The notes under the pieces: model-generated
Databases searched by the model: none
The model's input: only the letters and a program-made list of their open reading frames with translations
What the model was told of the DNA's origin: nothing
Program-made: the position numbers and the translations under genes
Shown here: in pieces, positions 17,375 to 40,566 of the stretch
Position numbering within the stretch: the first letter of the stretch is position 1
How the letters are laid out: each line of letters begins with the position of its first letter
Virus record (IMG/VR): IMGVR_UViG_3300043395_003236
Location: 1-40,566 of that record
Reading direction: 5' to 3' (one strand)
Length of the DNA stretch: 40,566 nucleotides
From: a virus

Positions 17375-18789
17375 ATCCGCATTGCTCATGCCCTCTTCAC
17401 GGTTTCTGCGAACGGCACCAGATGATCAAAGGGCCGGAACTCCACAAGCGATGTCAGGGCATCGCTCCGATCAGGAACTGCGGCCGTGACCTCTGGATCT
17501 GCTGGGAGCAGGGCGGCTGCGGAGCGGTGCCACCAGAGCATCCGGTGCTCGATCCGGAGCCGTTCTGCAGTGAGGCTCGCATTGTGAAGTCGTCGATCGG
17601 AACGCGGCTGGCGGAAATCATCGCGACGGAGACGGGCTCGGAGATCAAGTGCGCTGAGTGTCGGGCTCGGATGGAGGAACTCGACCGGCTGACTCAGGAC
17701 GAGGCAAGGCCTCTAAAGGATTCGATCGTCGAGGCCATCGTCTCGAAGGGCAATCAGGCTACCGGGCTGCAGGCGGCCGGCGTGTGGCTCGATAAGCTGC
17801 TCGGCGGCGGCATGACGCGAGCGATCGTACAAGACTGGTTTGACCGGGCCGTCGAGTTGGGAGCGGAGCCGGCGAGGCCACCCGAAAAAAAAAAGCTGCC
17901 TCTGCGTGCAAGGGCTGCGGATAAGCGGCAGCGGAAGTCCGGCAAACGCAAACCATACACCGGATGGCGATCCGAGGCTGACGGTCCCCATCTTTACCTC
18001 GGCCCGTTTGAGTCACCAACCAGAGCACTGACCTTTCACGTCTGGCCAACCATGCGGAGCGACTGCTGGCGGTGGAACGTGGAACAACTGAGCCGGCGAG
18101 CCGGGCTGTTCAACGGCCCGAAGGTGCTCGGCGTGGCGATCGACGAGACGACTCACTCGGCCGATGAAGTCGTTCGTCAGGCGGCCGCGGGCGGCCTGAC
18201 CTTCGACAAGGTTATCGTCGTGCGGAACAATCCGAAGCTCCGGGAAGTCGTCACGTTTCGCCCAATGCTCGAGGCGATCGGGATGCCCTCGAGGAATTCG
18301 GGGTTGGTCGTCTTCAGCGCTCATGCGAAAGGAACTCAGTACGAGGACGGTTCGTTCACGCGGGACTGGACGGAGTTGATGTACCGGAGTTGTTTGGACT
18401 ATTGGCCTCTCGTCGAGCAGCACCTTCGCCATGCCCTCTTCACCGGATCATTTCGTGAGTTCGGCCTGTTGGGCAAGTGGAAGGATTGGGCGTACAGCGG
18501 GACGTTTTACTGGTGGCGGGCGGCTGAGATCGCGAAGCGAGAATGGTGGGCCGTCGACAACTGGTTTGCGGGCACTGAGTCATGGCCGGGAAAGCTATGC
18601 GATCCCCGTGAGACGCGGTGCCTGTTTTTGAACGATAATCGGCGACTGTACGATGCGGAGTACTTCGACGGCACGGTGCGGCCGGCGTGGGTGACCTGGC
18701 AACGAAAAATGGAAAGGCAGAGCAATGCATACCGAGGCGTTCGAGTGGATCCGCGAGCAGGCGACCGATCAGCCGATCAGCGTGATTGA
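17371..18789 (+). CDS. Cys-rich module fused to a glycosyltransferase-like domain
   Basis: A 472-residue two-part protein. Residues 1-110 contain a cysteine/histidine-rich module (CSCPLHGFC, CWEQGGC, then CAEC at 94-97), followed by a helical part and a basic linker (RAADKRQRKSGKRK, about 181-194). Residues about 200-420 resemble a glycosyltransferase family marked by an N-terminal WP and Trp-rich segment, a strand plus ID, a VFSAHAKGT motif (His-x-Lys-Gly, 314-322) and YSGTFYWW (375-382), analogous to the family's SGNFWW motif. The sugar and acceptor are unknown. It follows the cysteine-rich protein by ATGA overlap and overlaps a methyltransferase gene by 65 bp. I infer that it modifies a virion protein or a host surface glycan. 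Confidence 0.55.
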   Translation: MNPHCSCPLHGFCERHQMIKGPELHKRCQGIAPIRNCGRDLWICWEQGGCGAVPPEHPVLDPEPFCSEARIVKSSIGTRLAEIIATETGSEIKCAECRARMEELDRLTQDEARPLKDSIVEAIVSKGNQATGLQAAGVWLDKLLGGGMTRAIVQDWFDRAVELGAEPARPPEKKKLPLRARAADKRQRKSGKRKPYTGWRSEADGPHLYLGPFESPTRALTFHVWPTMRSDCWRWNVEQLSRRAGLFNGPKVLGVAIDETTHSADEVVRQAAAGGLTFDKVIVVRNNPKLREVVTFRPMLEAIGMPSRNSGLVVFSAHAKGTQYEDGSFTRDWTELMYRSCLDYWPLVEQHLRHALFTGSFREFGLLGKWKDWAYSGTFYWWRAAEIAKREWWAVDNWFAGTESWPGKLCDPRETRCLFLNDNRRLYDAEYFDGTVRPAWVTWQRKMERQSNAYRGVRVDPRAGDRSADQRD

Positions 18790-19222
18790 GATCGGGAGCC
18801 GCAACGTCAACGGCACCGTGAGGGTGCTCTATCCAAACGCGGACTGGTTCGGCATCGACTGCGAGGACGGGCCTGACGTCGACCTCGTCGTTGATGCGAT
18901 CGAATACGATCCCGTCGAGCCGGCTGACCTCGTGATTTGCTGCGAGGTGTTTGAGCATGCCGCGCAGTGGGCTGCCATCATTCGCCGGGCGGCCGGCTGG
19001 CTGAAGGTCGGTGGGGAGATGATCATCACGGTCGCCGGTGCTCACCGGCCGCCTCACTCAGCCTTCGATGGTGGCGAGGTGCGGCCGGGCGAGTACTATC
19101 AAAACGTTTCCGCGGAGGCCCTCGTTGGAGTAGCCTTCGCGGCCGGGCTGCGGGGATACGCGGTCACGGTGAGAGACGGGCAGGATGTCTATTACAGGGG
19201 AACGCTATGCAACCGGACGTGA
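18725..19222 (+). CDS. SAM-dependent methyltransferase (class I)
   Basis: A 165-residue Rossmann-fold methyltransferase. Motif I is VIEIGSRNVNG, the acidic residue ending strand 2 lies in GIDCEDG, and LVICCEVFEH is the motif IV-like strand with post-helix His; the helix after WLKVGGEMIIT gives motif VI. The size suits a stand-alone small-molecule, sugar or protein methyltransferase and not a DNA methylase: it lacks a DPPY-type motif. It lies between glycosyltransferase-like and oxygenase genes with overlaps (65 and 16 bp), so the three are probably co-expressed. Methylation of the same sugar or of a side chain is a reasonable inference. Confidence 0.7.
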   Translation: MHTEAFEWIREQATDQPISVIEIGSRNVNGTVRVLYPNADWFGIDCEDGPDVDLVVDAIEYDPVEPADLVICCEVFEHAAQWAAIIRRAAGWLKVGGEMIITVAGAHRPPHSAFDGGEVRPGEYYQNVSAEALVGVAFAAGLRGYAVTVRDGQDVYYRGTLCNRT

Positions 19223-19839
19223 TCAGGAACGCGATTGACTGTCATTGCCTCGTCGGGGCTCGGGCAACCGTCCCGGAACTGACGTGGCCGCATTGGCATC
19301 GGTACCAGGGAGCGACGGCTGACAAGTATGCGACGGTCGACGCCGGGCGGATCCCGGCCGGAGTCATGCGGGCGATCCACCAGATGGCTGACCGCCTCGA
19401 GCGGCTGCTGCCGGCCGGGTCATTCTGGGACCTCGACCTTCACGGAGCAGGGATCCACGTTCTGCCGGCCGGTGGGTTCCTCAGCCGGCATCTCGACGCG
19501 GCAATGCACCCGATCCGGCCGTGGGTGAGAACGACCTCCGCGGTGCTCTTCCTGAACCGCCTGGAAGGCCCGGAGCCGGGCGGAGAACTCTGCCTCGAGC
19601 AATCAGGCCTTGTTGTTCCTCCCGAGGCGAACACGGCCGTTGTGTTCGACACGGCTGAGGAATGGCATTGGGTCAACCGAACGGCCGCAACGGCCGGTGA
19701 CCGGATCACCCTCGCCTTGTTCGGCTGGCGGCCGGCAATGCCCTATGAACGCGAAGCCGGCCGGCCGGCGAGGGCGACGTTCCGGGAACGGGCCGTCGAG
19801 GTGCCGATGGGCGAGAACGCGGCTTCCGTCGATTTTTGA
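19207..19839 (+). CDS. 2-oxoglutarate/Fe(II)-dependent oxygenase, prolyl-hydroxylase-like
   Basis: A 210-residue double-stranded beta-helix oxygenase. The iron ligands are visible as His95-x-Asp97 (SRHLDAA) and His154 (EEWHWVN). Arg166 (GDRITLALF) is in place to bind 2-oxoglutarate, and GGELCLE is the strand typical of prolyl 4-hydroxylase-like members. These enzymes hydroxylate a protein side chain or small molecule using oxygen and 2-oxoglutarate. The start 19207 follows AGGGG and overlaps the methyltransferase by 16 bp; an upstream extension in the same frame is only a shadow. A 9 bp inverted repeat (19824-19832/19845-19853) straddles its stop codon. Being last in the tail operon, it may modify the cysteine-rich protein or a fibre. 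Confidence 0.75.
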   Translation: MQPDVIRNAIDCHCLVGARATVPELTWPHWHRYQGATADKYATVDAGRIPAGVMRAIHQMADRLERLLPAGSFWDLDLHGAGIHVLPAGGFLSRHLDAAMHPIRPWVRTTSAVLFLNRLEGPEPGGELCLEQSGLVVPPEANTAVVFDTAEEWHWVNRTAATAGDRITLALFGWRPAMPYEREAGRPARATFRERAVEVPMGENAASVDF

Positions 19840-19856
19840 TATTCTCGACGGAATCT

Positions 19857-19896
19857 CTGATTCGCCCCTTGGGAATCAGCCGAACCATGTTACTGT
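19857..19896 (+). promoter_or_regulatory. Promoter P1 with operator dyad
   Basis: TTGGGA (19869-19874) and TACTGT (19891-19896) are 16 bp apart. The -35 is enclosed by CTGATTC (19857-19863) and GAATCAG (19873-19879), the same dyad as in P2-P4. The conserved leader GACGCACGGGGCTGA follows. It drives the amidoligase gene. Confidence 0.6.
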
Positions 19897-19965
19897 TGGG
19901 ACATGACGCGGGACGCACGGGGCTGAACGCGAAACCAAAACAACCGAGACTCAGGAGAGCCGGCC

Positions 19966-20808
19966 ATGATCATCAACGCAAACCAGATCACCTTCGGCTG
20001 CGAATTCGAAACCACCCTGTCAGCAACCGATACCACACCGATCGGACCATACCATCACGGGACGCAGGTTGACTGGCTGCCTCAGGGCTGGAGGGTAGAA
20101 CGCGACGGCAGCATCCAGCCGCGCGTACACGGCCGCAAGGGAGCGGAGTTCGTCAGCCCGAAACTGACCGGCGAAGCAGGCCTGGCCGAAGTATGCACGG
20201 CCCTCGACCGCCTGAACGAACGAGGGGCTCGGGTCAACGAAACCTGCGGATTGCACATCACGGTGACTTGGAACGGCGACGCCGCAGCCCTGGCTCGCCT
20301 GATCAACCTGGTCGCCAACCATGAGAAGGCGATCTACGCCAGCACCGGAACTAGCCGACGCGAACAGGGCAACTATTGCCGGCCGGTGAAGGTATACGGA
20401 AACGCGACACAGGCTGAGGCCCGAGCGAAGGCTGACCGATACCACCTTCTGAACCTGACGCACCTGGCTCGAGGGGCCAACCGGATCGAGTTCCGAGCCT
20501 TCGCCGGTACCCTGAACAAGGAGAAGGTGGTCGGGCACATCAGGATGGTCCTCGGTCTGGTACAGATCGCCCTGGAAGGCGGCCGATCAGCCTCCTGGAA
20601 TTACGAAGTGAAGCCTGGCAAGAAAGGCCCCTGGCACCGTGACTCAGCCGGACCAGGCGAGATCGAACTGAACCGCCTGTACTACCGCCTCGGCTGGACC
20701 AAGGGGCACGCGAAGAAGGTCTACGGGATGATCGAGAACGAGGTCACCGTGAAGGCCACCAAGAAGATCCTGACGAAGATGGCCGCGAAGTATGACAGCC
20801 ACAACTAA
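19966..20808 (+). CDS. Amidoligase (COOH-NH2 ligase, glutamine-synthetase-like fold)
   Basis: A 280-residue member of the Amidoligase_2 family (PF12224 type). Visible motifs in order are FGCEFE (10-15, metal-binding acids Glu13 and Glu15), VERDGSI (44-50), GAEFVSP (59-65), CGLHI (94-98), NLTHL (163-167) and RIEFRAFAGTLN (173-184). The family uses ATP to form amide bonds between a carboxylate and an amine and is linked to peptide tagging, cell-wall and novel metabolite synthesis. The usual partners (gamma-glutamyl cyclotransferase or glutamine amidotransferase) are absent here. The gene has its own promoter (P1) and the start-associated sequence CTCAGGAGAG at 19950-19959. The substrate is unknown; protein or nucleotide modification to aid infection is possible. 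Confidence 0.75.
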   Translation: MIINANQITFGCEFETTLSATDTTPIGPYHHGTQVDWLPQGWRVERDGSIQPRVHGRKGAEFVSPKLTGEAGLAEVCTALDRLNERGARVNETCGLHITVTWNGDAAALARLINLVANHEKAIYASTGTSRREQGNYCRPVKVYGNATQAEARAKADRYHLLNLTHLARGANRIEFRAFAGTLNKEKVVGHIRMVLGLVQIALEGGRSASWNYEVKPGKKGPWHRDSAGPGEIELNRLYYRLGWTKGHAKKVYGMIENEVTVKATKKILTKMAAKYDSHN

Positions 20809-20874
20809 CGGCCCCACGGGGCAACCAGGGGGCCGACGCGGCCGCCTGGCCTTCCTTCCTGATGACGAAAGGCG

Positions 20875-21069
20875 ATGATCATGAAAAGGGCAAGCTACCG
20901 GGAAGCGATCGCGTGGATCGCTCACAACGACAACGCCGGGAACGATGACTCAGAAGAGGACGTCGCCGGCTACGTCACGGTCGGCCTCGTCGCCGATCTT
21001 TTCGGTAAGACCGATGCCGAGGTCGCAGCGGCCGTGATGCGGATCCGACGCAAACTGCCGGCCGGCTGA
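20875..21069 (+). CDS. Small conserved phage protein
   Basis: A 62-64 residue protein. ATG occurs at 20875 and 20881; the AAAGG upstream (20868-20872) fits the second better. The opening SYREAIAWIAHNDNAG and the following EEDVAGYVTVGLVADLFG match a type of short protein I have seen in many phage genomes with no assigned role. It is helical with an acidic turn. It lies 66 bp behind the amidoligase without its own operator-type promoter, and its end is inside the first arm of a terminator. Confidence 0.6.
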   Translation: MIMKRASYREAIAWIAHNDNAGNDDSEEDVAGYVTVGLVADLFGKTDAEVAAAVMRIRRKLPAG

Positions 21070-21090
21070 TCAGCGGCCGGCCGTTTTTTC
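21057..21090 (+). terminator. Terminator overlapping the end of the small gene
   Basis: GCCGGCC (21057-21063) and GCT (21065-21067) pair with AGC and GGCCGGC (21072-21081) around GATC, with one bulged G, followed by TTTTTTC. It closes the amidoligase unit just before P2. Confidence 0.8.
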
Positions 21091-21113
21091 TTTTCCGAAT
21101 TCTCTCCGGATTT

Positions 21114-21154
21114 GCTGATTGCCCCCTTGAGAATCAGCCGAACCATGTTACTGT
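21114..21154 (+). promoter_or_regulatory. Promoter P2 with operator dyad
   Basis: TTGAGA (21127-21132), 16 bp spacer, TACTGT (21149-21154). GCTGATT (21114-21120) and AATCAGC (21132-21138) form an inverted repeat with an 11 bp gap that covers the -35. The common leader with GACGCACGGGGCTGA follows. Confidence 0.7.
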
Positions 21155-21210
21155 TACACCATCACGACGCACGGGGCTGAGTGATGACGAACCTTCTCAG
21201 GAGAGAAAAG

Positions 21211-21426
21211 ATGATGACGGCGAAAGAAACACGCGAGTACGTACACACCGTGATGGAGATCCAGGGAGCCTTGGAGAACCTGACGGAATGGGCCAGCAGC
21301 CTGCCAGCACCGGATTGCGACGGGGAACTCCCAACCACGACGCGTGAGCACCTGGCGGCCCTCAAGAAGATCATGAACGGCCTCTTCGGAGTCAGCGGTC
21401 AGGCTGACGAGTACAGCGAGATCTAG
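21211..21426 (+). CDS. Small hypothetical protein, unit 1 gene A
   Basis: A 71-residue helical protein (from MMTAKETREY) with two predicted helices separated by a Pro/Asp loop (LPAPDCDGELP). Not recognised. The start-associated sequence CTCAGGAGAG (21196-21205) lies five bases before ATG 21211. The leader ATG at 21184 is in the same frame, so a nine-residue extension (MTNLLRREK) is possible but less likely. It is the first gene of a two-gene unit under P2, followed by an intercistronic hairpin. Confidence 0.6.
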   Translation: MMTAKETREYVHTVMEIQGALENLTEWASSLPAPDCDGELPTTTREHLAALKKIMNGLFGVSGQADEYSEI

Positions 21427-21440
21427 TGAATGACCGGGGC

Positions 21441-21461
21441 GGCCGGTCACGGTGACCGGCC
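21441..21461 (+). promoter_or_regulatory. Intercistronic hairpin with CCGGTCAC/GTGACCGG core
   Basis: GGCCGGTCA and TGACCGGCC pair around CGG; there is no T-tract. The same core recurs at 22376-22402 in the equivalent position of the next unit, suggesting a retained RNA-processing, stabilising or protein-binding site. Confidence 0.55.
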
Positions 21462-21496
21462 CCCCTTCCTCAAACCTTTCCTCAGGAGAGAACGAC

Positions 21497-21895
21497 GTGA
21501 AGAAACTGAACCTGACAAAAACGACCGAGACGCGGGTGATCACCACCAAGCAGGTCGAAGTAGATCCCGGCTTCGTAGCGCGGCACCGGGTGGTGACGAA
21601 GGTGCAGGCCTCGACGCTGACACGGGAGTGGCCTGACGGCCCGAGGACCTCGGTGACCTTTGAGATCTGGTCACGGCCCCTTTTCTCGGATATGACCTCG
21701 GTGCGGCTGGAGGCCCCTGAGTTCACCCTCCTCGACCGGGCAGCGATCGCGGCCGCGGTGTTCGCGGTCGCCGGCGAACCGGAGTTCGCCCGGCTGATCA
21801 CGGACAGCAGCCTGCTGATGCTCGAGCAGCCTGAGGCGGCCCTCCTGGCAACGGCGATCGCCGAGTTCGAGAACCGCCTGGCCGCAGGCCGGTAG
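21497..21895 (+). CDS. Hypothetical protein, unit 1 gene B
   Basis: A 132-residue protein starting at GTG 21497, six bases after CTCAGGAGAG (21481-21490). The first half is beta-rich (TRVITTKQVEV, TSVTFEIWSRP). The second half is helical and Ala/Leu-rich (LLDRAAIAAAVFAVA, LLATAIAEFENRLAA). No family is recognised. It is second in the unit under P2 and is followed by a T-tract terminator. An earlier ATG in frame (21452) lies upstream of the start-associated sequence and is rejected. Confidence 0.6.
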   Translation: MKKLNLTKTTETRVITTKQVEVDPGFVARHRVVTKVQASTLTREWPDGPRTSVTFEIWSRPLFSDMTSVRLEAPEFTLLDRAAIAAAVFAVAGEPEFARLITDSSLLMLEQPEAALLATAIAEFENRLAAGR

Positions 21896-21952
21896 TGAAA
21901 AGGGAGGGGCCGGGCCGGGACGTCACCGGGCCGGCCGCCCTCCTCCCCGAGG

Positions 21953-21985
21953 CGGCCGGCTTCCCCCGGAGCCGGCCGTTTTTTT
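21953..21985 (+). terminator. Terminator of unit 1
   Basis: CGGCCGGCT (21953-21961) and AGCCGGCCG (21970-21978) form a perfect nine-base stem followed by seven Ts. P3 begins about 25 bp downstream. Confidence 0.88.
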
Positions 21986-22009
21986 CTTTTCCGAATTCTC
22001 TTCGGATTC

Positions 22010-22050
22010 GCTGATTCCCCCCTTGCGAATCAGCCGAAGGATGTTACTGT
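22010..22050 (+). promoter_or_regulatory. Promoter P3 with operator dyad
   Basis: TTGCGA (22023-22028), 16 bp spacer, TACTGT (22045-22050). GCTGATT (22010-22016) and AATCAGC (22028-22034) flank the -35 with an 11 bp gap. The leader is almost the same as after P2. Confidence 0.7.
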
Positions 22051-22079
22051 TACACCATCACGACGCACGGGGCTGAGTG

Positions 22080-22109
22080 ATGACAAACCTTCTCAGGAGA
22101 GAACGATGA
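22080..22109 (+). other. Possible leader peptide MTNLLRRER
   Basis: A nine-codon reading frame begins in the conserved leader and spans the start-associated sequence; its TGA overlaps the ATG of the next gene (ATGA at 22106). Translational coupling or attenuation is possible. In the P2 leader the same codons are present but run in frame into the gene. Weak evidence only. Confidence 0.3.
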
Positions 22110-22363
22110 CCAAGAAGAACAACACCACACCGGAACAGGCGGCCTACGACGCGAAGATTCGGGCGGCCCTCAGCGGCCTGACACCTGAGGCCTTCCAGCA
22201 GATCCGCGACGCGTACTACAAGGCGGTCGACGGGCTGATCGCCCTGGCTGAGGCCCTCGAGGAAAACGCACCGGCTGAAGGCGGCGTACTGATTGAGGCC
22301 CACCTTTGGGCGTCACAGGCTGAGACGACGCTCGACAAGGCCCGCCTCGGAAAGGTCCTCTAG
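22106..22363 (+). CDS. Small hypothetical protein, unit 2 gene A
   Basis: An 85-residue, mostly helical protein rich in Ala, Leu and Glu, with no recognised motif. ATG 22106 is four bases after CTCAGGAGAG (22092-22101). It takes the same position in its unit as the 21211 gene: own promoter, conserved leader, short helical protein, then the intercistronic hairpin. The two proteins are not obviously similar by eye, so the unit frame is shared while the gene is exchanged. Confidence 0.6.
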   Translation: MTKKNNTTPEQAAYDAKIRAALSGLTPEAFQQIRDAYYKAVDGLIALAEALEENAPAEGGVLIEAHLWASQAETTLDKARLGKVL

Positions 22364-22375
22364 AACGCCGGCCGC

Positions 22376-22402
22376 GGGGGCCGGTCACGGTGACCGGCCC
22401 CC
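22376..22402 (+). promoter_or_regulatory. Second intercistronic hairpin
   Basis: GGGGGCCGGTCA (22376-22387) and TGACCGGCCCCC (22391-22402) form a perfect twelve-base stem around CGG. The core CCGGTCACGGTGACCGG is identical to that at 21443-21459. Confidence 0.6.
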
Positions 22403-22438
22403 CACGGCCTCAGAAACCCCTTCTCAGGAGAGAACGCG

Positions 22439-22693
22439 ATGCGAGTACAACACACAGACGTAGAATACCGGGCCTCTCACGGCAAGGCCCCACGGGGCTT
22501 CGGGGTTTGGGCCTTCTCCTTCGAGGCGATGACACCGGCCGGCAGCGTGACGACGGTCGCCGATTGCTGGTTCGCCCCTTCGGGCACCCTGGCCTCAGCG
22601 AGGAAGGCGGCGGCCGCGAAGGCGAAGGAACTGATCGCGGCCGCAAACGCGACGCACCTGACCGAGGTGGTTTTCATCGACGTGAAAAGCTGA
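22439..22693 (+). CDS. Small hypothetical protein, unit 2 gene B
   Basis: An 84-residue protein with a beta-like N-terminal half (VEYRASHG, GVWAFSFEAM, VTTVADCWFAP) and an Ala/Lys-rich helix followed by a final strand (EVVFIDVKS). It is not recognised. ATG 22439 lies six bases after CTCAGGAGAG (22423-22432). It is the second gene of the unit under P3, and a terminator follows at 22782. Confidence 0.6.
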   Translation: MRVQHTDVEYRASHGKAPRGFGVWAFSFEAMTPAGSVTTVADCWFAPSGTLASARKAAAAKAKELIAAANATHLTEVVFIDVKS

Positions 22694-22781
22694 GACCGGA
22701 AGCGGCCGGGATGGCCGCGGAAGGCAGGGGGAGCCGGCAGGATGAATGAACGAGGGGCCGGCCCCCCTGGGGAATCAGGCG

Positions 22782-22813
22782 GCCGGCCGGGGAAACCCGG
22801 CCGGCTTTTCTTT
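22782..22813 (+). terminator. Terminator of unit 2
   Basis: GCCGGCCGGG (22782-22791) and CCCGGCCGGC (22796-22805) form a perfect ten-base stem capped by a GAAA tetraloop and followed by TTTTCTTTC. The 88 bp between the previous gene and this stem hold no convincing gene. Confidence 0.88.
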
Positions 22814-22832
22814 CTGGAATCTTTTCGGATTT

Positions 22833-22873
22833 GCTGATTGCCCCCTTGCGAATCAGCCGAAGGATGTTATTGT
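22833..22873 (+). promoter_or_regulatory. Promoter P4 with operator dyad
   Basis: TTGCGA (22846-22851), 16 bp spacer, TATTGT (22868-22873), the best -10 of the set. GCTGATT (22833-22839) and AATCAGC (22851-22857) form the dyad. Its leader is shorter and lacks the full GACGCACGGGGCTGA element. Confidence 0.7.
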
Positions 22874-22914
22874 TACACCATCACGCGGGGCAAACAACTC
22901 ACTCAGGAGAGACG

Positions 22915-23007
22915 ATGGAACGCCACCTGGCTCCTGGCTGCCCCCTGCGATACTCAGTAGCCTTGGCCGTGATCATGAAGAAGGCCGGCCTGCCGATCAC
23001 CTTCTGA
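22915..23007 (+). CDS. 30-residue protein under its own promoter
   Basis: A 30-codon gene from ATG 22915 to TGA 23005-23007 (MERHLAPGCPLRYSV...). The C-terminal half is hydrophobic to amphipathic, with VALAVIMKKAGLPITF. The support is contextual: promoter P4 with the operator, and CTCAGGAGAG (22902-22911) three bases before the ATG, the same signals as all other genes of the array. Function is unknown. Confidence 0.5.
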   Translation: MERHLAPGCPLRYSVALAVIMKKAGLPITF

Positions 23008-23025
23008 AATAGCATGATAAACCCC

Positions 23026-23054
23026 TTGCGAATCACGCGGGGGGATGGTACCCT
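23026..23054 (+). promoter_or_regulatory. Promoter P5, divergent copy
   Basis: TTGCGA (23026-23031), 17 bp spacer, TACCCT (23049-23054). The dyad is degenerate (TGATA upstream, AATCA across the -35). The leader element GACGCACGGGGCTGAGTGA is kept, followed by the start-associated sequence at 23094-23103. Confidence 0.5.
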
Positions 23055-23108
23055 TCGACCGTCACGACGCACGGGGCTGAGTGACGGGGCCTTCTCAGGA
23101 GAGAAACG

Positions 23109-23579
23109 ATGACCATGAAGACCGGTGACCGAATGACCTGCGACGGCCGCAAAGGGATCTTCCTGGAATACACACGCGACTACGACCGGGGCGGTCAGGA
23201 GATAAACATGCACACGCTGAACGTCAAAGAAACTAGCACAACCTTGGGCATCAAGCTGAAGCCGTTTGTTTTTCGCGGAGCCTTTGAACTCCACGGGATC
23301 ACGGTGAAGCATACGGTTTGGGACGATGAGTTTGCTGAGGCACCGGAACACGAACACACCGAGTCATGGGACGGGCGGCTGAGAACACGCAAACTGACGG
23401 CCAAGGGGCTGCCGGATCAGCGAACTGAGGATCGGAGCCACTACGCTTCGGGGACCGACGAACTCGCCTGCTGCCATGCTTTCGTCAGGTTGCTCGACGC
23501 CGAGAAGCGGGCGATCTTTGGCGACCGGTTTCGTGATTGTTGGAAACATTCAGTGGCGGAAACGCTGGAGGTGGGATAA
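23109..23579 (+). CDS. Hypothetical protein under P5
   Basis: A 156-residue protein, not recognised. The first half has beta-like stretches (KGIFLEYTRDY, INMHTLNVKE, KPFVFRGAFEL). The middle is charged with many His and Glu (EHEHTESWDGR), and a C-terminal helix contains CCHAFVRLLDAEKRAIFGDRF. ATG 23109 lies five bases after CTCAGGAGAG. This is the last gene carrying the start-associated sequence; the next gene begins immediately after its stop with a different Shine-Dalgarno. Confidence 0.6.
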   Translation: MTMKTGDRMTCDGRKGIFLEYTRDYDRGGQEINMHTLNVKETSTTLGIKLKPFVFRGAFELHGITVKHTVWDDEFAEAPEHEHTESWDGRLRTRKLTAKGLPDQRTEDRSHYASGTDELACCHAFVRLLDAEKRAIFGDRFRDCWKHSVAETLEVG

Positions 23580-26897: not shown

Positions 26898-27158
26898 ATG
26901 ATCACTTTGGAGACGAATGAGATGGCGAAGAAGAAGGAAGCGGAGCCGGTGCGGCCGAGCGTAGGCGGCCGGCGTGAGGGAGCCGGGCGAAAGGCCGGCG
27001 AACACGGCCGGAAGATCCAGAAGGATGTCTACCTGACCCCTGCGGTTTTGGAATTCCTGACCCGTGACGGTTGGGCGGCCGGAGTGGCGATCGAGCAGAT
27101 GGTTCGAAAGTCAGCGGCGTTCAAGGCCTGGCAAAGGGTTCTGGAGGAGAACCGATGA
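26898..27158 (+). CDS. Ribbon-helix-helix-like DNA-binding protein candidate
   Basis: An 86-residue protein. After a basic linker with the common opening GGRREGAGRKAG (about 33-44), residues about 50-80 read DVYLTPAVLEFLTRDG followed by AAGVAIEQMVRKSAAFKAW: a strand and two helices in the pattern of ribbon-helix-helix proteins, which bind inverted repeats as dimers of dimers. ATG 26898 (GGGG upstream) and ATG 26922 (GGAG at 26909-26912) are both possible starts. It is preceded by P6, which carries the array-type dyad, and is therefore a candidate for the regulator of that operator. That link is inference. Confidence 0.5.
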   Translation: MITLETNEMAKKKEAEPVRPSVGGRREGAGRKAGEHGRKIQKDVYLTPAVLEFLTRDGWAAGVAIEQMVRKSAAFKAWQRVLEENR

Positions 27159-28019: not shown

Positions 28020-29204
28020 ATGACGCAGGCGACGGCAGAACTGACTCGGGCCGAGTATCCGGCCTCGAGGGCTTCGACGAAGGGCATCTTTGCCCTGGAA
28101 TACATGCGGGGGCTTCCGCCAGAAGGGCTGACGGCTGCGGAGCGGGTTTTCCTGCATCACGTCGTCACGACTGAGGACGCGGCGTACTACCGCGGCCCGG
28201 TGACCTTCTGGCTCCGGCAGCTTGCCGGAATCATCGGCTGCTCGACCGATACGGTCGCAAGGGTTCGTCAGCGGCTGATTGACGGCGGCTGGCTTGCCTA
28301 CATCCCCCCAGATGCTCCCCGACTCCCCGGCCGCTATTGGGTGATTCAGCGGGAAGATCCCGAGCGGGATTTTGACCGCACTGGTGCGGCTAAACCGGGC
28401 CGGTTTGACCGCTCTGTTGCGGCCCATTCTACCCTATGCCCTAGAACAGATACCTCGGGCCGGAGGCCCGAGGCCGGAGGGCGGCCCCCAAAGGCCGTCC
28501 CCCACCGGCCTACGGGCCACACCGGCCCTGCAGCGCTGGATCAGGAAACGCAGTCCTTTGAGCAGCAGGCACCGGGCCGGCTGCCGCCTCAAACCCCCAA
28601 AGCGGCCCACAGGCCGCCTGAGAAGCCGGAAGGCGACCGAATGAACGAACCAAACACCGAAACGCCCCAGACGGCCGCTAATGCGACGACGCGAAGCGAA
28701 ACGCCACCTTTCCCCCTGCTGACCGCGGCCGCGGCCGAGTGGGCGGAGTTGATGGGTGAAAACCCGGTGCCTGCCTGCCTGGCTGAGTTCCAACTGGAAT
28801 TGCTGGATTGGGCTCGGTACCGGCGAAGCAGCCTCGGGCCGAACTGGGATCCCTTCTGCCTCGAGCCGGATCTGGTCAGGGCGGCCCGTATCGGCTGCAA
28901 ACTGAAGACGGCCGTTGATTGGGCGATCAGGATGCGGAAGGACAAGATCCCGGATCCGAAGCACGAGTGTGACCTCCCGATGGAGCGACTCGCCTCCTGG
29001 CATCGGCTGAGGCTGCGGGCTGACAGCGAAGGCTGGACCGGGCTCGACGATCGCACTCGCCGGCTGCTGAAGCGAGTGGGGGAGGCTGAGGGCTTCCACG
29101 GCAAAGAAGAATTCCTGGCGGCCCTGACGACCGACAGCGGCCGTCATGACCTGAAGCGAGCGGTGGCGTATTTCAAGGCCTTGGACGAGGAAACGAAGCG
29201 ATGA
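28020..29204 (+). CDS. Replication initiator, lambda O-like candidate
   Basis: A 394-residue protein. Residues about 36-110 contain a winged helix (WLRQLAGIIGCSTDTVARVRQRLIDGGWLAYI, 64-95), as in phage initiators. Residues about 115-215 are Pro/Arg-rich and probably disordered; the DNA coding this part carries two 20 bp iteron-like repeats. Residues about 220-394 form a helical C-terminal domain that would recruit the helicase. Position before a DnaB-type helicase gene supports an initiator or loader. ATG 28020 follows GGAG; a GTG in frame at 27981 lies inside the terminator stem region and is rejected. It overlaps the next gene by ATGA. The O-like call rests on architecture and context. Confidence 0.6.
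   Translation: MTQATAELTRAEYPASRASTKGIFALEYMRGLPPEGLTAAERVFLHHVVTTEDAAYYRGPVTFWLRQLAGIIGCSTDTVARVRQRLIDGGWLAYIPPDAPRLPGRYWVIQREDPERDFDRTGAAKPGRFDRSVAAHSTLCPRTDTSGRRPEAGGRPPKAVPHRPTGHTGPAALDQETQSFEQQAPGRLPPQTPKAAHRPPEKPEGDRMNEPNTETPQTAANATTRSETPPFPLLTAAAAEWAELMGENPVPACLAEFQLELLDWARYRRSSLGPNWDPFCLEPDLVRAARIGCKLKTAVDWAIRMRKDKIPDPKHECDLPMERLASWHRLRLRADSEGWTGLDDRTRRLLKRVGEAEGFHGKEEFLAALTTDSGRHDLKRAVAYFKALDEETKR
28371..28423 (+). repeat. Two iteron-like direct repeats inside the initiator gene
   Basis: TTTGACCGCACTGGTGCGGC (28371-28390) and TTTGACCGCTCTGTTGCGGC (28404-28423) are identical at 18 of 20 positions, 33 bp apart, and each holds a CCGC/GCGG dyad. In lambda, the origin iterons lie inside gene O; these are a candidate equivalent. 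They encode a repeated FDR peptide, so coding duplication is the alternative. Confidence 0.45.
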
Positions 29205-30103
29205 ACGTTGGTGACCGGGTGATCTATCCGAAGTTCCTGAACGGGACGGAGAAGCCGATAGGGGTCTACACGGAAGAAGCGGCGTGGAAGCGAAGTGATC
29301 ATTTCACTGAGCAGAAACGCGGCATCCTGACGTCGGTGCATGGCGATACTGCCTATGCCAAGTTTGATCACGGCGGCGGGGTGCTGGCGAATCAAACCGA
29401 CTTCATCGCGACGGACCTCGACGGGCGGCCGCGGCCGGGGGATCCGCACGAGACCTGGCTGGTCTACGCTGACATGCTGGAGGACGCCGGAGACAGCGAC
29501 TGCGAGCGGTGGCGTGATGCCTACGCGATCTCCGGCGAAGGGATGGTCCTGCAGGCGAAGTTCGACCTGCTGCTCAAATACGGCTACTGGCCGCGGGCGG
29601 TCACTGGCAAGAGGCTGACACTGAGGCGTGGTTTGTACGAGACGACCGTCGACCACATGTACGGCATCTGCCTTTTTTGGTGGGGCTTCGGGCCGGGCGG
29701 CAGCGAGCGGCAGTACGAGCGGCGGCTGGAAGTGCTGCGATCAGCGGCCGCCTCCACGGACCTTATCCATCCCTTCGAGGCATCGTTCGAACCGACGAAC
29801 GGCGTTCGCCACACCGACGCGAGCGGTAACCGAGGATCCAATCCCTACATCATGCCGGCTATGCGGCATCTCGCAGAGATGCTCGTTTGGTGCTTTCGGC
29901 CGATGGCCTACGACCGAGCACTTGCCGGCGAGGTCGTCGAGCCAGTTGGGCTGCAGTTAGTGGAGACGGTTTTCTTCATGACGGAGCAATCAGTCATGAC
30001 GGAGCAGCTGATCGAGCAACCGCTCAGAAACTTTCGGATCTATGCCGACAACGGGGTTCATCTGATGAAGCATCCCGGCATCATCAAAGCAGGTGAAACA
30101 TGA
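29201..30103 (+). CDS. Hypothetical protein with TIGR02996-like segment
   Basis: A 300-residue protein between initiator and helicase genes, joined to both by ATGA overlaps. Residues about 80-106 (GDPHETWLVYADMLEDAGDSD and following) resemble the TIGR02996 repeat-companion domain, whose core is a LVYADWLEERGD-like motif typical of Planctomycetes. The N-terminal 70 residues form a beta-rich part (GDRVIYPKF...GILTSVHGDTAYAKF) like an SH3-type barrel. The C-terminal half contains Trp-rich segments and a helical end. It is unrecognised as a whole; a helicase-loader role is possible only by position. Confidence 0.55.
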   Translation: MNVGDRVIYPKFLNGTEKPIGVYTEEAAWKRSDHFTEQKRGILTSVHGDTAYAKFDHGGGVLANQTDFIATDLDGRPRPGDPHETWLVYADMLEDAGDSDCERWRDAYAISGEGMVLQAKFDLLLKYGYWPRAVTGKRLTLRRGLYETTVDHMYGICLFWWGFGPGGSERQYERRLEVLRSAAASTDLIHPFEASFEPTNGVRHTDASGNRGSNPYIMPAMRHLAEMLVWCFRPMAYDRALAGEVVEPVGLQLVETVFFMTEQSVMTEQLIEQPLRNFRIYADNGVHLMKHPGIIKAGET

Positions 30104-38625: not shown

Positions 38626-40566
38626 ATGCCGGTGTTACCAATCCATCAAGCAGCGGATATGAGCTTCGATCCGTCAGCCTGCGTAGTCCTGACGGCAGCA
38701 AACCTGCAGGCAGCGCTGCTGGAGGTCGACACGGAGTTGGCAGCAATCCCGTCGTCCTATCAACCACTGGACGCTGACCTGACGGCGATCGCGGCCCTCA
38801 CCGGCACCAACACTCTATACTATCGGCAGGCTGCAAACACGTGGGCGGCGGTCACCATCGGCGGAGGTCTCTCGTTCTCAGGCGGCACGCTGCAGACCAG
38901 CGGGGTGCTGCTGACCGCCAACAACCTTTCCGAACTGACGGCAACGGCCGCGACGGCCCGGTCGAACCTCGGGCTCGGAACAATGGCCGTGGAGGCGGCA
39001 TCGACGTATCTGACGGTGGCGGCGGCCGCGGCCGGGTACCAACCTCTCGACGGGGATCTTTCAGCGATCGCGGCCCTCACGGGCACGAACACCCTGTACT
39101 ATCGGTCGGCAATCAACACCTGGTCAGCGGTGACGATCGGGACCGGGCTATCCTTCTCAGCCGGCACACTTTCATTTACTGGTGGTGGAATCACGTCGCT
39201 CGGTGGTCAGACTGGAGCAACGCAGACATTCTTAACAAGCACAACCGGCACTGACTTCACGATCAGCAGTTCCGCGAACGTTCATACCTTCGCAATCCCG
39301 GATGCTAGTGCTACGTCGCGGGGACTGGTGACGACCGGAGCACAGACGTTTGCGGGACAGAAGACGTTTGCGCAGGGAACGCTGACATCGTCCGCTCCAT
39401 TAACGCTCACGCAGACGTGGAACAGCGGTGCCACGACATTCACTGGTGCATTGGTCAATATCACCGACACTGCCTCTGCTTCTGCTTCACTGCTCCAAGA
39501 TTGGCAGGTTGGTGGTTCGAGTAAAGTGACTCTCCGAAAAGACGGTCAAATGTCTTTCTGGGGAACTGGAAGTGGACTTGGTCTTGCTCAGTTGCAAGGT
39601 GGAGGAGGTAGCTCTTGGTTCATCTATTCAGGTGGAACATTTCAATCACCATTGTTTAACTGCAACGGTTGGTTCGGAATGGTTGATGGTGCCGCTGGTG
39701 GTGTGCAGTTCTTTTCTGGTCACGGAATTGTCTGGTCAGGAACAGGAGCGTCAGGGTTGCTTACACGAAACAGTCTGACTGGTGACATTGGCTTGTTTCG
39801 TGGCGGGGCGGGAATAATAGAGCAACGATACAGTACGACCGCTCAGTCTTACTTATTGTACAATACTTATTCTTCATCAACTAATAATGAGTCTTTTAAG
39901 ACTTCTTGGGTTTCTAATGAAGCTAGAATGGGCACTGCCGTTGGTTCTGCTGGAGGCACCCGTAGAAACGTAGTTCTTGGATCATGGAGTTCTGCTGGAA
40001 CATGGTCTCCTGCAATTACAGTAAATGGAACATCACAAGCTACAACAATAAATGGTACACTTACATGTAACAATGCTGTAACCTTTGGTGGAAATCTTTA
40101 TGTTGGTGGCCATATTGATTTACCGTATGGTCTATCTAAATTAAGATGTTTTGAAGACACCACTACCAATATCGCGCTCGCCCCCGACTCAGTAATTATT
40201 GCTGCGAACTCAAGAACAGTAATAGACCTTACATCCTCCTATTGCAATTTTACACCGCAAGGTGCAGTTACCGTTGCTCCAGCAGCCTCAACCAGTGGAT
40301 CAAAGACTGATTTTGTAGTAACTGCTCCAGCCCATACGGCTCAAACAGCTTCCACAGAGTCACCATCTGTAAACTTTAACCTAAGTGCGACAAAGCAGTT
40401 TGCTACTGGCAGCATCACGACGCAGCGAGCCTTCCGCATTCAGGCACCGACGTATGCCTTTGCATCTGCAAGTACAATCACAAACGCAGCAACACTTTCG
40501 ATCAGCGGTGCTCCTGTCGCTGGCACCAACGCAACACTAACAAACAGCTATGCCCTCTGGGTTGAA
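38626..40566 (+). CDS. Tail fibre / receptor-binding protein, cut by window end
   Basis: A frame open for 647 codons from ATG 38626 (AGGGGAAG upstream) to the right edge, without a stop. The N-terminus has Ala-rich segments (VLTAANLQAALLEVDTEL) and two copies of a 45-residue beta module (about 45-89 and 138-182), followed by NLGLGTMAVEAAST-type and FAGQKTFAQGT segments that are common in tail fibres. The C-terminal part is Gly/Ser/Thr/Asn-rich beta sequence. The GC content falls from about 68 percent (39001-39060) to about 28 percent (39841-39900), suggesting a swapped distal domain. Receptor-binding is inferred; the end and any chaperone domain lie outside the window. Confidence 0.75.
   Translation, partial: MPVLPIHQAADMSFDPSACVVLTAANLQAALLEVDTELAAIPSSYQPLDADLTAIAALTGTNTLYYRQAANTWAAVTIGGGLSFSGGTLQTSGVLLTANNLSELTATAATARSNLGLGTMAVEAASTYLTVAAAAAGYQPLDGDLSAIAALTGTNTLYYRSAINTWSAVTIGTGLSFSAGTLSFTGGGITSLGGQTGATQTFLTSTTGTDFTISSSANVHTFAIPDASATSRGLVTTGAQTFAGQKTFAQGTLTSSAPLTLTQTWNSGATTFTGALVNITDTASASASLLQDWQVGGSSKVTLRKDGQMSFWGTGSGLGLAQLQGGGGSSWFIYSGGTFQSPLFNCNGWFGMVDGAAGGVQFFSGHGIVWSGTGASGLLTRNSLTGDIGLFRGGAGIIEQRYSTTAQSYLLYNTYSSSTNNESFKTSWVSNEARMGTAVGSAGGTRRNVVLGSWSSAGTWSPAITVNGTSQATTINGTLTCNNAVTFGGNLYVGGHIDLPYGLSKLRCFEDTTTNIALAPDSVIIAANSRTVIDLTSSYCNFTPQGAVTVAPAASTSGSKTDFVVTAPAHTAQTASTESPSVNFNLSATKQFATGSITTQRAFRIQAPTYAFASASTITNAATLSISGAPVAGTNATLTNSYALWVE
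38758..39171 (+). repeat. Tandem duplication inside the tail fibre gene
   Basis: A 45-codon module at 38758-38892 recurs at 39037-39171, starting YQPLD and ending GLSFS-x-GTL, with 38 of 45 residues identical. The two copies are 279 bp apart. The DNA is less conserved than the protein, implying an old duplication under selection. Confidence 0.75.

Follow-up and report, generated by a model that had tools for sequence, protein, structure and literature searches.

In cluster K mycobacteriophages, start-associated sequences (SAS), which are short, conserved and asymmetric with an AGGAG core, are found in the non-structural half of the genome, 3-7 nt ahead of the start codons of unrelated genes, and a subset of them, the extended start-associated sequences (ESAS), is preceded by an inverted repeat containing a SigA-like -35/-10 promoter (PMC3203893; PMC11373665). 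In phage Adephagia, the ESAS is composed of a SigA-like promoter, an inverted repeat and the SAS before the ATG (PMC11373665), and a gene family with an ESAS in one cluster K genome carries it in others too (PMC3203893). The promoter early stem-loops (PeSLs) of T4-type phages are described as composite terminator and early-promoter motifs between small accessory genes, thought to mediate shuffling by recombination (PMC4503421; PMC3950731). A conserved promoter with an inverted repeat also precedes most open reading frames (ORFs) of one genome half in the haloarchaeal virus HGTV-1 and has been likened to PeSLs (PMC3950731). The present analysis concerns an array of small genes in the IMG/VR virus record IMGVR_UViG_3300043395_003236 (positions 1-40,566, one strand; these 40,566 nt as a whole are called the window), in which five sets of unrelated small genes are headed by one recurring switch, made up of promoter, control site, leader and ribosome-binding tag, that would act as a socket for trading early genes. 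We give a probability of roughly 0.7 to this explanation as a whole, the array being best explained as the place where a tailed phage's early region begins.

The array resembles cluster K in its architecture: (i) a repeated tag containing a Shine-Dalgarno (SD) sequence, a decamer present in seven copies, stands 3-6 nt before the starts of unrelated products, as SAS do, and (ii) an inverted repeat, TGATT-N11-AATCA, lies over the -35 of promoters with an extended -10, as in ESAS, with a repeat sequence that differs from that of cluster K. The 13-bp SAS consensus of cluster K (GGGATAGGAGCCC), allowing two mismatches, has one match in the window, with two mismatches, on the minus strand and outside the array; allowing three, it has nine matches against 13 expected. 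The genome is not placed in cluster K, and a nucleotide comparison with 50,697 phage records gave no match for it. The comparison with cluster K SAS, drawn in a preliminary description of this DNA, thus stands for architecture and falls for sequence, the consensus being absent from the array. Furthermore, the ESAS stays with its gene family in cluster K, whereas in the relatives of the window phage the frame stays and the gene changes, and the window array differs in its terminators, in its leader hairpin and in the sequence breaking off at the start codon.

PeSLs have reportedly been treated in Arbiol 2010 and Comeau 2014; promoter and terminator activity and recombination mini-circles are reported as further hallmarks of theirs. 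The window array resembles them in joining stem-loop terminators to sigma70-like promoters (P2, P3 and P4; early timing predicted), in several copies between accessory genes, and in gene shuffling bounded by the motif, for a sister frame in relatives and, for the window's own frame, by the comparison of units 2 and 3 only. In contrast to PeSLs, the conserved block of the window extends via leader and SD to the start codon and carries a predicted operator, and the window phage is small (40.6-kb record), has a gpA-type terminase and a lambda-family portal, and is not a T4-type myovirus. HGTV-1 shares with the array a repeated upstream promoter with an inverted repeat, but its promoters are of the archaeal TATA type and exchange behind a fixed frame is not reported there (PMC3950731). 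Judged from its sequence, the window array appears to work like cluster K SAS/ESAS and T4 PeSLs and is a member of neither, which would extend these ideas from mycobacteriophages and T4-type phages to an unrelated environmental phage group.

The five-unit array

The decamer CTCAGGAGAG is present in exactly seven copies in the window, all on the + strand and between 19950 and 23103. Its reversed form, used as a control pattern, has no match in the window, and first-order Markov resampling of the 3.4-kb region gave a commonest 10-mer seen 2-3 times in 499 of 500 trials. Two of the copies (21481 and 22423) precede second genes that lack a separate promoter. The SD decamer and its flanks could in principle pair into a hairpin (TTCTC-AGGA-GAGAA), but this was discarded, since three of the seven copies break the outer pairs.

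The pattern TTG-N3-N13/14-TGnTAnnnT, searched on both strands of the window, matches only at the -35 elements of five predicted promoters (19869, 21127, 22023, 22846 and 23026), and TTGNGAATCA occurs five times on the + strand and never on the - strand. Given the TG before TAnnnT, these promoters are of the extended -10 type; a stricter E. coli-type consensus scan recovers none of the five, because their -10 is TAnnnT and not TATAAT. An inverted repeat, TGATT-N11-AATCA, spans each -35, exact at P1-P4 and imperfect at P5, and the four exact copies in the window are confined to the array. The elements of the five units are as follows.

19857-19896, + strand: promoter P1, predicted operator 19858-19878, -35 TTGGGA at 19869, extended -10 TGTTACTGT (-10 at 19891-19896)
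19907-19931, + strand: predicted P1 leader hairpin, loop GACGCACGGGGCTGA at 19912-19926, arms CGCG 19907-19910 and CGCG 19928-19931, after a G.A mismatch
19950-19959, + strand: unit 1 decamer CTCAGGAGAG, 6 nt 5' of ATG 19966
19966-20808, + strand: unit 1 gene A, amidoligase-family protein, 280 aa (PF12224, E 4e-19)
20875-21069, + strand: second gene of unit 1, 64 aa, with a homologue (57%) in Dinoroseobacter phage vB_DshS-R4C, no preceding decamer
21059-21093, + strand: unit 1 predicted intrinsic terminator, overlapping the 3' end of the 64-aa gene, its T-tract entering the P2 block
21115-21154, + strand: promoter P2, predicted operator 21116-21136, -35 TTGAGA at 21127, -10 TACTGT at 21149-21154
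21160-21186, + strand: predicted P2 leader hairpin, CATCAC-GACGCACGGGGCTGA-GTGATG
21196-21205, + strand: unit 2 gene A decamer, 5 nt 5' of ATG 21211
21211-21426, + strand: unit 2 gene A, 71 aa, no known-family match
21438-21467, + strand: palindrome GGCCGGTCACGGTGACCGGCC at the unit 2 A/B joint, hairpin without T-tract, second copy at 22376-22405
21481-21490, + strand: unit 2 gene B decamer, 6 nt 5' of GTG 21497, no own promoter
21497-21895, + strand: unit 2 gene B, 132 aa, no known-family match
21949-21990, + strand: predicted intrinsic terminator ending unit 2
22011-22050, + strand: promoter P3, predicted operator 22012-22032, -35 TTGCGA at 22023, -10 TACTGT at 22045-22050
22056-22082, + strand: predicted P3 leader hairpin, CATCAC-loop-GTGATG
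22092-22101, + strand: unit 3 gene A decamer, 4 nt 5' of ATG 22106
22106-22363, + strand: unit 3 gene A, 85 aa, no known-family match
22376-22405, + strand: second copy of palindrome GGCCGGTCACGGTGACCGGCC, at the unit 3 A/B joint
22423-22432, + strand: unit 3 gene B decamer, 6 nt 5' of ATG 22439
22439-22693, + strand: unit 3 gene B, 84 aa, no known-family match
22781-22812, + strand: predicted intrinsic terminator ending unit 3
22834-22873, + strand: promoter P4, predicted operator 22835-22855, -35 TTGCGA at 22846, -10 TATTGT at 22868-22873, no leader hairpin
22902-22911, + strand: unit 4 decamer, 3 nt 5' of ATG 22915
22915-23007, + strand: unit 4 ORF behind P4, 30 aa, resembling the C-terminal half of a swapped gene of relatives (L101/L104/L106)
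23015-23054, + strand: promoter P5, imperfect predicted operator TGATA-N11-AATCA 23015-23035, -35 TTGCGA at 23026, -10 TACCCT at 23049-23054
23059-23087, + strand: predicted P5 leader hairpin, CCGTCAC-loop-GTGACGG, arms changed in pairs relative to P2 and P3
23094-23103, + strand: unit 5 decamer, 5 nt 5' of ATG 23109
23109-23579, + strand: unit 5 first gene, 156 aa, no assigned function

The 15-nt leader GACGCACGGGGCTGA is found in four exact copies (19912, 21166, 22062 and 23066), after P1, P2, P3 and P5, and no copy with one or two mismatches is present in the window. It would form the loop of a hairpin beginning at about +1, if transcription starts 7 nt past the -10. The arms at P5 differ from those at P2 and P3 by one two-sided change and one added pair; in the window, 0.4% of positions have at least six pairs around a 15-nt loop and 0.14% have at least seven. 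In other viral contigs the 15-mer has 22 matches, which were judged to be due to chance (stems of 0-2 bp, promoter absent from the flanks), and neither the leader with the decamer, exact or gapped, nor the full promoter pattern of the window has any match. A 21-mer leader core is likewise absent from 84,980 species genomes. In brief, the signals of the preliminary description (the same decamer 3-6 nt before seven starts, five promoters with a shared -35/-10 pattern, and the leader after P1, P2, P3 and P5) were all recovered, and none of them recurs elsewhere in the window.

Units 2 and 3 combine conserved control DNA with different genes. Indeed, the terminator-promoter-leader-SD block up to the start shares 88% identity between them (shuffled 47%) and the A/B joint, a repeat composed of a 21-bp palindrome and then the decamer, 74% (shuffled 47%), against 51% for gene A (shuffled 47%) and 44% for gene B (shuffled 42%). 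The P2 and P3 blocks are 94% identical across 124 nt, and both units have the order A, hairpin, B, terminator. The array proteins of the two units have no detectable mutual relation and their coding identity is near the shuffled level, which agrees with the earlier observation that the proteins behind the shared signals differ. The palindrome GGCCGGTCACGGTGACCGGCC between the A and B genes, which lacks a T-tract, could serve to stabilise the mRNA or as a further site for a protein.

The small ORFs of the array have a coding-like codon-position GC (GC3 0.77-0.86), and the unit 1 amidoligase is the only array protein with a known family. The terminators at 21059, 21949 and 22781 lead directly into P2, P3 and P4. 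None was found in the ~900 bases past the first gene of unit 5, so the remaining early region may be read from P5. The similarity of this gene to the first early gene of a related contig (G001) is too weak for it to be considered a homologue.

A sister frame with exchanged genes in relatives

The window terminase shares 25-28% identity with the best phage records, and terminase relatives with ~55% identity were obtained from 41 uncultured viral contigs. Neither the window array nor the amidoligase nor the window promoter DNA was found in the 19 terminase relatives searched. Another conserved control frame is present in G001, G006 and G007 before different genes, at the structural/early junction or inside the early region. 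In this sister frame two TGATATCA palindromes flank TTGACG-N16-TATCAT (also TGnTAnnnT), followed by a leader, GCCCGCACCGAGACGCAAAACACTGGCAAGGAAAAGAACG, and the ATG, with AAGGAAAAGAACG directly before the ATG. A pattern scan (TGATATCA-TTGACG..TGATATCAT-GCCCGCACCGAGACGCAAAACACTGGCAAGGAAAAGAACG, then ATG) recovered this frame of ~100 bp in 12 related viral contigs, with seven different genes behind it that encode proteins of 47-80 aa without mutual relation by phmmer (all E > 0.2).

N-termini of the seven swapped proteins: MTRGTRV.., MATTTKT.., MTKYDIA.., MNEIINT.., MSYSKAC.., MSRHESR.., MTTQITI..

Seven representatives, each with another gene, were compared in 21 pairs: the 95 nt 5' of the ATG are on average 92.3% identical (range 84-97%), the 100 nt 3' of it 48.2% (46.4% when shuffled), and 150-nt blocks at -300 and -450 have a mean of 51-52%. 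The pairwise BLASTN blocks end at +2 to +13, mostly +3, and homology resumes 150-980 bp downstream, in one shared gene that encodes a 51-aa protein (NPQLLLRVPPELQKPLADEATKTGESRQGVLWRIAAKYF). Between G021 and G027 the replacement is clean: homology begins 1.48 kb upstream, includes the frame and reaches the ATG, is interrupted by a different gene in each, and then resumes. Compared with G001 and G022, G007 has one entire additional unit of ~900 bp. The gene behind a fixed frame is thus replaced in relatives, with an exact boundary at the start codon. The preliminary description had read the array as a conserved control frame with an exchanged gene, a reading that the sister frame and the comparison of units 2 and 3 support, and had proposed to look in relatives for the same signals before different genes; there the architecture was found (12 contigs, seven genes) and the exact decamer and leader were not.

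The 51-aa gene is highly conserved and lies directly after the exchange slot (+152 to +310 in G001 and +339 to +494 in G022, from the frame ATG). Its product has a weak HicB-like Pfam hint, below the cut-off, and is a candidate regulator of the TGATATCA frame. A second joint, TTGAGGGGGCAGGG followed by ATG, is made of one gene's end and the next SD and is present in G021, G022, G023, G024, G026, G027 and G007, with genes behind it that look RuvC-like, RusA-like and HNH-like by eye.

The two types of frame also meet. The additional unit of G006/G007 has the operator geometry of the window, TGATT-N11-AATCAGCCGA..ATGGTAATAT, with an unrelated gene behind it, and ends in AAGGAAAAGAACG before the ATG, as does the neighbour frame. 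A scan with the operator-promoter pattern gave four new loci, among which one is genuine (L126, in G029), with a related leader wording (CATAGTCGAACAACACAAAC) and yet another gene; the other three (L127, L128 and L129) are chance-like matches inside other DNA. Furthermore, the 30-aa ORF behind P4 matches the gene swapped in L101/L104/L106 in its C-terminal half (55% over 20 aa; phmmer E 2e-4; tblastn E 0.007, the best match anywhere in the window), which suggests that cargo is common to both frame types.

Candidate regulator, proposed mechanism and alternative explanations

A candidate for the protein acting on the operator is encoded downstream of the array.

26898-27158, + strand: candidate operator regulator, 86 aa, GGxREGAGRK..., found only in phages carrying the TGATT-N11-AATCA operator

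Homologues are present in G006, G007 and G029 and in none of the other relatives. Across 30 records, several of which are fragments, operator and homologue are both present in four and both absent in 26 (Fisher 4e-5, uncorrected for relatedness). The homologue in G029 is a true prediction, because G029 was found via the operator alone. In G007, the homologue gives a BrnA-antitoxin (ribbon-helix-helix) hint that is weak and falls below the cut-off, and the AlphaFold model of the window protein (pLDDT 63) has helices in the conserved half only, both AlphaFold models being of low confidence. From this co-occurrence, the protein could bind and regulate TGATT-N11-AATCA.

In the proposed mechanism, the early region would consist of tandem stand-alone expression cassettes, each with a sigma70-type extended -10 promoter, an operator over the -35, a short leader (except at P4), an SD tag and one or two small genes. 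Each unit would be transcribed by host polymerase early, on entry, and a phage regulator, most likely the GGxREGAGRK protein, would bind the operators and close all units together. The intrinsic terminators after units 1, 2 and 3 would make the units independent of one another, and any inserted gene would receive the same mRNA start and ribosome site from the leader hairpin and SD tag. The near-identical control DNA between units and between phages could double as recombination homology, units being duplicated, gained and lost and coding sequences being replaced with the join at the start codon. This boundary may reflect selection for working junctions and not a dedicated mechanism. We put at even odds the wider proposal that a clade of uncultured phages keeps a fixed promoter-operator-leader-SD dock, cut at the start codon, into which early genes recombine and gain the phage regulator, the window being a five-unit array with a hairpin leader.

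Such a dock would address the old question of how phages place newly acquired small genes under proper control. Control DNA and cargo are here separable by inspection (one frame, seven cargos, cut at the ATG), and the role of shared regulatory DNA in driving gene exchange becomes testable. Small genes just behind such frames, likely to be early and swappable accessory genes, also provide a search handle for candidates for host takeover or counter-defence.

Several points weigh against the reading of the array as a socket for early genes. The exact decamer array and leader of the window were not found in relatives, so exchange for the window array rests on units 2 and 3 and on the sister frame. 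A break at the start codon, with different genes behind it, is also seen at the promoterless TTGAGGGGGCAGGG-ATG joint, so a start-codon boundary may be general in these phages. Taken whole, the leader RNAs are no more stably folded than shuffled sequences (z 0.2 to 0.75), and the leaders of relatives are unstructured; the evidence for the leader hairpin is modest, because whole leaders fold like shuffles, the P2 and P3 hairpins are copies and P4 has no such element. As for the regulator, the association counts three independent phages, G006 and G007 being near-identical in the region; the G029 homologue is ~14 kb away from the operator; and the modelled fold of the window protein is tentative (pLDDT 63), with neither Pfam nor PDB giving a significant match.

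A history in which a single promoter-gene unit was duplicated locally in tandem and the coding parts then diverged fast, with no gene exchange from outside, would account for the near-identity of the P2 and P3 blocks within one genome and for the common order of units 2 and 3. This is highly improbable, as coding identity near the shuffled level beside adjoining non-coding DNA at 88% would need extremely constrained control DNA, and duplication cannot yield a single frame copy with seven unrelated genes between conserved flanks. That the start-codon joints are ordinary phage mosaicism, in which only functional junctions survive and the frame has no special role in exchange, is somewhat unlikely: it agrees with the different genes behind the promoterless joint, but the ~100-bp frame far exceeds an SD, its 92% identity contrasts with ~51% further upstream, and entire units are gained and lost.

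Control of the array could also be translational, a phage protein or RNA binding the decamer and/or the leader hairpin and switching all units at once, a role that has been proposed for cluster K SAS. Conservation indeed reaches past the SD core, the loop is invariant in four copies with stem arms that change in pairs, and the 22 chance copies of the 15-mer lack comparable stems; this explanation is nonetheless unlikely, given that the hairpin is absent at P4 and in relatives, that three of the seven sites lose the pairing past the CTC-GAG of the decamer itself and that no candidate binder is at hand. Finally, the operator could be the site of a host regulator, the phage tapping host regulation in place of a repressor of its own. 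Neither a repressor nor an integrase was recognised in the window, and the phage regulator is assigned by co-occurrence only, but the perfect co-occurrence of operator and phage-encoded protein makes a host regulator distinctly improbable.

Other features of the window phage

In addition to the terminase and portal, a DnaB-type helicase is encoded in the window. The helicase and the 64-aa protein, used as queries against viral sequences, gave no matches, nor did the array proteins against plasmids or the Rfam search, and a terminase profile search of bacterial genomes gave a single distant match. A DNA methylase (N6_N4_Mtase) with an N-terminal extension (157-1503) lies directly 5' of the terminase genes. 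At the end of the structural region, a small methyltransferase is followed by an overlapping 2OG-Fe(II) oxygenase-like frame (18725-19839), and this methyltransferase is kept at the same junction in G001, G027 and G028. A repetitive tail-fibre-like reading frame (38627-40566) continues past the right end of the record; within it, GC drops from 61% to 46%, which suggests that the receptor-binding end was recently acquired. In the relative G015 (L048), at least 12 copies of a 27-nt repeat (ACCGGTCGCGGACGCTGCTCC...), of in-frame length, are found at contig positions ~28990-29400 and probably encode a repetitive protein.

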